Assembly: GCF_030056575.1 (NCBI RefSeq)
Contig: NZ_JASHHX010000002.1
Location: 186,001 to 250,000 of the forward strand
Source: Rhodoblastus sp. 17X3
GTDB lineage: Bacteria > Pseudomonadota > Alphaproteobacteria > Rhizobiales > Beijerinckiaceae
Length of the DNA: 64,000 nucleotides
Direction of reading: 5' to 3'
In this document: one piece after another, positions 61,721-63,266 of the stretch
Layout: every line of letters begins with the position of its first letter
How positions within the stretch are numbered: the stretch's first letter is position 1
Translations under genes and position numbers: made by a program
Notes under the pieces: generated by a model
Told to the model about the DNA's origin: nothing
What the model saw: only the letters and a program-made list of their open reading frames with translations
Database searches by the model: none

Positions 61721-61858
61721 GAAATGGGTCCCGTCGAGAGGTTCCGATTAAGCCAAGCGTGGCGACGAAGCAAGGCGCGGCTTTTCGCGGTGGGAACGAA
61801 GGAATGGCGCCTTGCGCGGGCGCCTTGGAATAATTTTTGTCTTTCGGCTTGATCGACG

Positions 61859-61878
61859 CCAATTTTTTGAAAAATTGG
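61859..61878. promoter_or_regulatory. 20-bp inverted repeat between guaA and the structured RNA
   Basis: CCAATTTTT (61859-61867) and AAAAATTGG (61870-61878) form a perfect inverted repeat with a 2-bp centre. It lies 138 bp upstream of guaA and 28 bp before the first helix of the plus-strand RNA, so it could control either divergent unit. Confidence 0.4.
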
Positions 61879-61906
61879 GCGCTTCTCCTGATGACAAGGC
61901 CAAAAG

Positions 61907-62109
61907 CTTGGACTAACGTGGCCACGCACTCCAAAGGAGGCCAGGGCCGAAAACGGCCCATGCATGCTGTCCAAGTCGTGGGAGGACGTTTCGCATCGGA
62001 CGGTGCGCCATAAGGCGCTGGGGAGATGAGCTGAACAGCTTTTTCGATGCGGGACAGGACAAGTGAGGCGGAGCGGAAAGACTCGATAGTCTTTCCGCTC
62101 ATTCTTTTT
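61907..62109 (+). ncRNA. Candidate structured ncRNA between guaA and tgt
   Basis: Two nested domains are visible. Domain 1 is closed by CTTGGAC (61907-61913) with GTCCAAG (61969-61975). Inside are TGGC/GCCA (61919-61922, 61940-61943) enclosing CTCC-AAA-GGAG, and GGGCCG-AAAA-CGGCCC (61944-61959). Domain 2 is closed by 11 pairs, GTTTCGCATCG (61988-61998) with CGATGCGGGAC (62045-62055), two of them G-U. Inside are GCGCC-ATAA-GGCGC (62005-62018) and AGCTG-AA-CAGCT (62029-62040). A 13-bp terminator follows. The wobble pairs and terminator point to the plus strand. It does not resemble tmRNA, RNase P RNA or SRP RNA as I know them; 6S RNA is not excluded. Confidence 0.6.
62071..62109 (+). terminator. 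Strong plus-strand intrinsic terminator
   Basis: GAGCGGAAAGACT (62071-62083), loop CGAT, AGTCTTTCCGCTC (62088-62100), then ATTCTTTTT. No plus-strand protein gene ends here, so it marks the end of a non-coding transcript. Confidence 0.85.
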
Positions 62110-62129: not shown

Positions 62130-63266
62130 TCAGGCCGGCGCGTCAGGCTCGCCGCCGCGCTCCCAATCGGCCTTCACCTGAAGCCGATAATCGGCGAAGC
62201 GCCCCTCGGCGATTGCCGCGCGTGCGCCCGCCATCAGCTCCTGATAATAGGCCAGATTGACCCAGGTCAGCAGCATCATGCCCAGAATCTCCTGGCAGCG
62301 CACGAGGTGATGCAGATAGGCGCGGGAATAGTCGCGCGCCGCCGGGCAGGAGGAATGCGGGTCCAGCGGGCGCGGGTCATCGGCGTGCCGGGCGTTGCGC
62401 AGATTGATCTTGCCCCAGCGGGTATAAGCCAGCCCGTGGCGCCCGGCACGGGTCGGCATGACGCAATCGAACATGTCGATCCCGCGCGCGACCGACTCGA
62501 TCAGATCGTCGGGCGAGCCGACGCCCATCAGGTAATGCGGTTTGTGCTCCGGCAGATGCGGCATGACCGTCTCGATCATCGCCAGCATGACCGCTTGCGG
62601 CTCGCCCACAGCAAGTCCGCCAACGGCGAGGCCGTGGAAATCCATATCCGCCAAAGCCCGTGCGCTCTCGATGCGCAGGGACCGCTCGGCCCCGCCCTGC
62701 ACGATGCCGAAACAGGCGTGGCCGGGCTGTTCGCCAAACGCCTTGCGCGAGCGTTCTGCCCAGCGAAGCGATAGCCGCATGGCGCGTTCGGCTTCCTCGG
62801 GCGAACAGGGCAGCTTCACGCATTCGTCGAACTGCATCTGGATGTCCGAGCCGAGCAGGCGCTGGATTTCCATCGAGCGTTCCGGCGTCAGCACATGTTT
62901 GGCGCCGTCGATATGGGACTGGAAGGTGACGCCGTTCTCGTCGAGCTTGCGCAGCTTGGCCAGCGACATGACCTGGAAGCCGCCGCTGTCGGTCAGGATC
63001 GGATGGGGCCAGTTCATGAACCTATGCAGGCCGCCGAGCGCCGCGACCCGTTCCGCGCCGGGGCGCAGCATCAGGTGATAGGTGTTGCCGAGCACGATAT
63101 CCGCGCCCAGTTCGCGCACCTGCTGCGGATACATGGCCTTGACGGTCGCGGCCGTGCCGACCGGCATGAAGGCGGGGGTTCGGATGGCGCCGCGCGGCGA
63201 AAGAATTTCGCCCAGACGGGCGCCGCCGTCCCGGGCGATAAGCCGGTAGCCGAAAGTGTCGGTCAT
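62130..63266 (-). CDS. tgt: tRNA-guanine(34) transglycosylase
   Basis: Swaps guanine 34 for preQ1 in tRNAs with GUN anticodons. 378 aa TIM barrel. Active-site residues: [12 protein letters not shown] and [17 protein letters not shown], with the nucleophilic Asp. The zinc site is degenerate: where E. coli has CxCxxC the sequence is S305-x-C307-x-x-A310, and the usual His of the HNLxYY segment is V336 (TWVNLAYYQ). Fold and active site are intact, so it is probably functional. Directly downstream of holB. Confidence 0.93.

Follow-up and report, generated by a model that had tools for sequence, protein, structure and literature searches.

The gap between guaA and tgt in Rhodoblastus sp. 17X3 raises the question of whether it encodes an RNA and, if so, what kind of RNA this is. 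We analysed a window of 64,000 nucleotides (G000:C12:186001-250000, G000 being the source genome of 4.18 Mb), for which the initial annotation had proposed an undescribed structured RNA in this gap, either trans-acting or housekeeping in nature, or a divergent 6S RNA.

A predicted small RNA gene between guaA and tgt

Both neighbours of the claimed locus were identified by Pfam, and we conclude that the gap between them holds a real RNA gene, with a plus-strand transcript predicted from its sequence and with boundaries shifted relative to those first proposed (Table 1). The transcript start near 61926 was placed seven bases past the -10 box of a predicted promoter. The pattern [TAG]GACA-N17-TA, picked after the loci had been inspected, stands ahead of a conserved core in 41 of the 42 related loci, compared with 0.2 expected from shuffles. 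An automated sigma-70 scan called no promoter at the window RNA. At the other end, the analysis bore out the terminator, a 13-pair stem with a plus-strand T tract. A terminator of tgt was also considered and rejected, as the sole terminator-like site is this one, oriented by its T tract to the plus strand. Immediately 5' of the RNA promoter, in the minus-strand guaA leader, lies an A/T-rich inverted repeat, CCAATTTTTTGAAAAATTGG (61858-61879); comparable A/T-rich stretches occupy the guaA-leader position in several Rhodoblastus genomes.

Table 1. Features of the guaA-tgt region, in window coordinates.
Feature	Position	Strand	Basis or remark
guaA	60128..61720	-	Divergent neighbour; Pfam
Predicted promoter ATGACA-N17-TAACGT	61891..61919	+	ATGACA 61891-61896, 17-base spacer, TAACGT 61914-61919
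Predicted small RNA, ~183 nt	61926..62108	+	11 Rhodoblastus transcripts aligned, plus fold
P1 5' arm	61968..61972	+	Pairs with 62057-62061; four inner pairs GUCC/GGAC invariant
Invariant core CCAAGUCGUGGGAGGA, complement of alpha-r8 seed	61971..61986	+	About +46 to +61 of predicted transcript
Core hairpin GUC[GUGGGAG]GAC, three pairs	61975..61987	+	RNAalifold and full-length fold
Helix P3 5' arm	61988..61998	+	Pairs with 62045-62055; covariation, lineage exchange test
Inner hairpin a	62005..62018	+	Arms 62005-62009/62014-62018; fold only
Inner hairpin b	62028..62041	+	Arms 62028-62032/62037-62041; fold only
Helix P3 3' arm	62045..62055	+	Covariation, RNAalifold, lineage exchange test
P1 3' arm	62057..62061	+	Covariation count, RNAalifold
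Intrinsic terminator and T tract	62071..62108	+	13-pair stem 62071-62083/62088-62100; two compensatory pairs
tgt	62130..63266	-	Convergent neighbour; Pfam

The claim that 61907-62109 folds beyond chance held: the plus strand reaches -87.2 kcal/mol (z -4.37), and none of 200 shuffles folded as low. The minus strand folds equally well (z -5.20), which removes the wobble pairs as evidence of strand; the plus strand was instead assigned because of the promoter and the T tract. We dropped the outer helix drawn initially between CTTGGAC (61907-61913) and GTCCAAG (61969-61975), because its 5' arm falls within the predicted promoter's spacer and varies while GTCCAAG stays unchanged. The fourth base of this arm is C or A in all ten other Rhodoblastus genomes (CTTCGAC, CTTAGAT, CTTCAAC). 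The helix of 11 pairs, two of them U-G, was recovered and is called P3 here. Two of the four inner hairpins that had been described are in the fold (a and b in Table 1), while support for the two 5' ones is poor, with 46.5 and 53.0% of cells paired in the 11-genome Rhodoblastus alignment.

In addition to the terminator, RNAalifold applied to this alignment returned P1 GUCC/GGAC, the hairpin GUC[GUGGGAG]GAC and the six basal P3 pairs. Five of the 11 P3 pairs changed on both sides, and the basal six were kept in 11/11 Rhodoblastus genomes, with compensatory changes. For six helices scored in the 11 genomes, the structure being that of the window sequence, covariation was 0.212, compared with 0.124 (sd 0.013) in shuffled alignments, none of 500 of which scored as high; sliding the same helices to other positions gave at most 0.117. 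Weaker measures were matched more often, pairs changed on both sides by 23 of 500 shuffles and further pair types by 263 of 500. When P3 arms were exchanged among 33 loci of seven lineages, the mean run was 7.0 with the own partner versus 3.67 with that of another lineage (n = 870), and runs of seven or more occurred in 16/33 own and 39/870 exchanged combinations. The g64 lineage (Methylocapsa/Methylocella group) had runs of 3-5 only. The core hairpin and the four P1 pairs are invariant, so covariation gives no test of them, and a local-fold test of core hairpin presentation lent no support (6 of 49, compared with 8.2 expected).

A strong fold located between guaA and tgt might also be expected of a housekeeping RNA, 6S-like or otherwise, or of a leader or terminator of either gene. 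We regard this as very improbable, since the RNA is directed away from guaA and stops before tgt, and since the upstream neighbour is proS at loci of the alpha-r9 family and in a related genus (see below). The divergent 6S RNA suggested at the outset is contradicted by a separate 6S RNA (RF00013) at G000:C2:46230-46378, which scores 54.2 bits, above the Rfam cut-off; none was found in the window. Searches of the window for tRNA and tmRNA likewise returned none. The Rfam search that the initial annotation had proposed found no family at gathering score in the window; its five sub-threshold matches sit more than 30 bits under their respective cut-offs, and assignment to any family at cut-off was rejected.

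The invariant core and its relation to alpha-r9

Across the 11 aligned transcripts, GUCCAAGUC-(G or A)-UGGGAGGACGU is invariant, as is GGACAAG downstream. A core-pattern scan found the core in 11/11 Rhodoblastus genomes; in a similarity search, eight genomes, G000 included, aligned over the greater part of the query, and two others over a short stretch. Within the family of the host, the core pattern matched in 49 of 298 genomes and its reversed control in none. The patterns of two scans, this one included, required T at the ninth base, which two later, relaxed scans did not. Several of the 13 matches in the first of these (L150, L152, L155 and L156) and two in the second (L157 and L160) resemble chance or coding hits. 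In some cases within the family, the matched core sequence belongs to the antisense strand of an alpha-r8 gene. Promoter, fold and pairing counts were based on 42 RNA-gene-like loci, leaving out duplicates as well as L018, L023, L024, L026-L029, L031, L034, L035 and L040 (alpha-r8 antisense, coding or unclear).

Conservation of this kind could reflect a small protein with S-K-S-W-E-D encoded across the core, given that the N of CCAAGTCNTGGGAGGA falls on a third codon position and that several genomes keep this frame open. We rejected this reading frame as scarcely credible. One Rhodoblastus genome (G009) carries an additional base directly after the core, the start and length of the frame vary among genomes, and relatives linked to tgt or proS have GA, TG or TC in place of NT, losing W. 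The block is instead conserved as RNA helices with compensatory changes.

Alpha-r9 is an orphan sRNA family known since 2007. We take SmrC9, also named sra32 or SmelC289, of Sinorhizobium meliloti to be alpha-r9 (RF02343, ar9), which fits its length of 149 nt and its neighbour proS. The ar9 model did not match the window locus up to E = 10 (gathering cut-off 45 bits), and the window RNA is accordingly not filed as a member of RF02343. Related loci with the same gene order in f29 genomes score 29-41 bits, and one core locus outside the family of the host scores 49.3 bits, compared with the cut-off of 45. Rfam detects alpha-r9 in a minority of the genomes of the order: ar9 matched at E ≤ 0.001 in 50 of 199 genomes, 27 above the cut-off. 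Of the 51 matches, 30 were fetched for examination (27 above the cut-off), and 29 of these 30 loci contain the core within one mismatch of AAGTCNNGGGAGGA. The ar9 consensus holds AAgUCuUGGGAgGA as a hairpin inside a multibranch, and its conserved core hairpin AAGUCUUGGGAGGA has CCAAGUCGUGGGAGGA as its window counterpart. An outer helix, the core hairpin, a hairpin-enclosing inner helix and a terminator are predicted in both the window RNA and the ar9 consensus, with topology compared by eye.

Gene order provides a second connection. All 30 ar9 loci have a divergent gene upstream, identified as proline--tRNA ligase (proS) on three and two examples. The window RNA adjoins guaA, not proS, and the two orders are bridged by two genomes of one related genus (G089 and G026) with proS upstream and tgt downstream of the core. 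An upstream proS was seen at fifteen additional core loci (at one via a short match only); twelve records, representing eleven distinct loci, have tgt downstream only. In 11/11 Rhodoblastus genomes, the core is flanked by guaA on its upstream side and by tgt on its downstream side. Another fifteen records, some of them duplicates, have neither neighbour in the examined stretch. At three of the Rhodoblastus loci (L007, L122 and L123, in G009, G006 and G010), the distance from the core to tgt is 1.1, 1.8 and 2.5 kb, respectively, rather than some 0.2 kb. From the chain of proS-RNA, proS-RNA-tgt and guaA-RNA-tgt arrangements, the window RNA is most likely an orthologue of alpha-r9 that diverged beside guaA. 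The original label of an undescribed RNA thus stands in part: the window has no Rfam hit at gathering score and no ar9 match, but the core and the gene order tie its RNA to alpha-r9.

Complementarity to the alpha-r8 seed

Loci found by the core scan include RF00519 (suhB, alpha-r8, MmgR) on the opposite strand, with seven matches among 20 loci scanned. Except at its two central bases, CCAAGUC-NN-GGGAGGA matches the alpha-r8 seed UCCUCCC-UA-GACUUGG in reverse complement. Allowing at most one mismatch, CCAAGTCNNGGGAGGA has three sites in the 4.18-Mb genome, namely the window RNA and the antisense of two alpha-r8 genes; at up to two mismatches there are 25 sites, compared with 23 for a reversed control. 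The source genome has three alpha-r8 matches of 79.3, 51.1 and 39.6 bits, one of them below the Rfam cut-off of 41. Predicted duplexes of the window RNA with these three seeds reach -27.9, -27.7 and -25.5 kcal/mol. Among 1000 shuffled RNAs, 1, 4 and 27 did as well, and among 2020 window tiles 0, 0 and 3; the third copy thus pairs less well. Complementarity of the window RNA to the alpha-r8 seed is beyond chance and near-unique.

This predicted pairing recurs among relatives. Alpha-r8 scores above cut-off in 46 of the 49 genomes with a core match. We paired 40 of the 47 Rhodoblastus alpha-r8 matches (11 genomes) with their RNA, and the best predicted site overlaps the core in every case; at most three of 200 shuffles were as low for 38 of these pairs, and 10 and 15 of 200 for the other two. 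The genomes with examined ar9 loci all contain alpha-r8 (30/30). When each alpha-r9 was matched with its own alpha-r8, the best site covered the core in 30/30, with at most two of 200 shuffles as low. Exchanging alpha-r8 seeds among 17 groups gave -32.45 for own and -31.34 ± 0.35 for exchanged combinations (8 of 5000 as low). The result depends on the grouping, however, as 358 of 5000 were as low with one genome per family (12 families), and in family f44 alpha-r9 has AUGUC while alpha-r8 has no matching change. We therefore regard co-evolution of alpha-r9 and alpha-r8 at the family level as weak.

Rhodoblastus genomes (G000-G010) carry two to seven alpha-r8 matches each, with the seed variants UA, UU and CU; seed centres one base longer or shorter also occur. 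The main alpha-r8 copy of the source genome leaves two mismatched bases in the middle of its duplex with the window RNA. A conserved central mismatch was considered as a feature and is contradicted by two loci from a different family of the class (L158 and L159, in G816 and G683) that have the matching TA. Both are RNA-like: each carries CCAAGTCTAGGGAGGAC, which complements the usual alpha-r8 seed in full, with a terminator-like repeat after it; proS is not within the examined stretch.

Because the alpha-r8 seed is itself anti-Shine-Dalgarno, its match to the core might be a by-product; the window RNA would then be an alpha-r9 orthologue that uses its core chiefly against mRNAs or against the 16S rRNA end that carries the anti-Shine-Dalgarno. 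GGGAGGA does look like a Shine-Dalgarno sequence, mRNAs are the usual targets of Hfq-bound small RNAs, and CrfA of Caulobacter, according to passages of PMC12559287, was initially taken as an mRNA regulator. The conserved core, however, consists of two parts, CCAAGUC plus GGGAGGA, and its complement at no more than one mismatch occurs genome-wide only in alpha-r8 genes. The aligned Rhodoblastus transcripts, moreover, have no start codon at the usual distance after GGAGG. We therefore consider action mainly on mRNAs or 16S rRNA unlikely.

Proposed function and comparison with known systems

We propose that the window RNA is a diverged orthologue of alpha-r9 (SmrC9/SmelC289) that acts in trans by sponging alpha-r8, in the manner of CrfA in Caulobacter, and assign this reading a probability of roughly two in three. 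The best-kept stretch of the RNA complements the active stretch of alpha-r8, which makes catching and silencing alpha-r8 its probable role. A trans-acting small RNA, one of the possibilities raised initially, thus remains the best reading, while the predicted partner alpha-r8 had not been foreseen. The window RNA would be expressed from its own promoter and ended at its own terminator. The junction of P1, the small core hairpin and P3 would present AAGUC-GU-GGGAGGA, which in the cell would pair with the single-stranded alpha-r8 seed UCCUCCC-UA-GACUU, probably on Hfq; an hfq gene is present in the source genome. Such pairing would mask the seed from its mRNA targets and/or trigger decay of alpha-r8, and the alpha-r8 targets would thereby be released in response to a putative signal that induces the window RNA.

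The direction of control might also be reversed, with alpha-r8 as the regulator and the window RNA as its target, or with mutual decay controlling both. SisA of Caulobacter also reduces full-length CrfA (PMC12559287). The window RNA has no conserved reading frame, so it is not an ordinary target, and its single locus, set against the two to seven alpha-r8 copies in Rhodoblastus, fits a common antagonist. A reversed or mutual relation therefore seems improbable to us, and we favour the sponge reading.

A second GGGAG or GGGGAG stretch occurs at 62019-62025 of the window and in L016, L017 and L025; in Beijerinckia it lies inside a predicted hairpin loop. The second GGGAG site was found in 9/11 Rhodoblastus genomes, at both Beijerinckia loci and at one g17 locus. 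It may possibly be a second pairing site, but it is missing from all nine g64 loci, which makes a two-site sponge no more than a guess.

On a wider scale, alpha-r9 and its unrecognised Beijerinckiaceae relatives, possibly together with CrfA, may form an anti-alpha-r8 sponge system of Alphaproteobacteria, a single RNA maintained beside proS or tgt with silencing of the alpha-r8 siblings as its principal conserved role, a generalisation for which we see even odds. Alpha-r8/MmgR has been linked to carbon storage, and SmrC9/alpha-r9 was picked up in Sinorhizobium by several screens. Alpha-r9 and the window RNA share an invariant core, and this core complements the alpha-r8 seed. If the pairing is confirmed, the orphan family alpha-r9 gains a testable function, and alpha-r8/MmgR a natural antagonist beyond Caulobacter.

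The literature passages covered here state no function or target for alpha-r9/SmrC9. They describe SmrC9 of Sinorhizobium as 149 nt long (PMC2780559, PMC2873474) or about 165 nt on Northern blots (PMC2573895), undetectable in nodules (PMC2780559) and co-precipitating with Hfq (PMC2848018), and MmgR as having no described direct target in 2020 (PMC7143759). A pairing of alpha-r9/SmrC9 with alpha-r8/MmgR is not stated in the covered passages of PMC12559287, PMC7143759, PMC8844928, PMC3927594, PMC2848018, PMC2780559, PMC2873474, PMC2573895 and PMC8307010. The search covered few subscription papers, so the absence of such a statement is no proof of novelty.

Among known systems, alpha-r8 (RF00519 suhB; MmgR, SisA-D) is a distinct RNA and the complementary partner of the window RNA. 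StsR of Rhodobacter sphaeroides resembles the window RNA as an alphaproteobacterial small RNA acting on another, UpsM, but passages of PMC8307010 give it 72 nt, this different partner and rpoE mRNA as a further target. With alpha-r9, the window RNA shares the core AAGUCNNGGGAGGA, a hairpin with a UGGGA loop in a multibranch and a terminator, as well as the same kind of promoter at related loci and a gene order linked through proS-RNA-tgt. The two differ in length (about 183 versus 149 nt), in neighbour (guaA versus proS) and in their outer helix (GUCC/GGAC versus CGCG/CGCG), and the window RNA stays under the Rfam model even at E = 10. The closest mechanistic parallel is CrfA, in which, as described in passages of PMC12559287, a G/A-rich stem loop (protected at G49-C63) pairs with the 10-base core of SisA-D, the four alpha-r8 RNAs of Caulobacter; CrfA thereby reduces SisA, aided by Hfq, and releases the SisA targets. 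The window RNA is likewise predicted to pair with the alpha-r8 seed through a G/A-rich segment of its own, roughly at +46 to +61. The sponge is proven by experiment for CrfA and predicted for the window RNA, and the two are likened here by mechanism.
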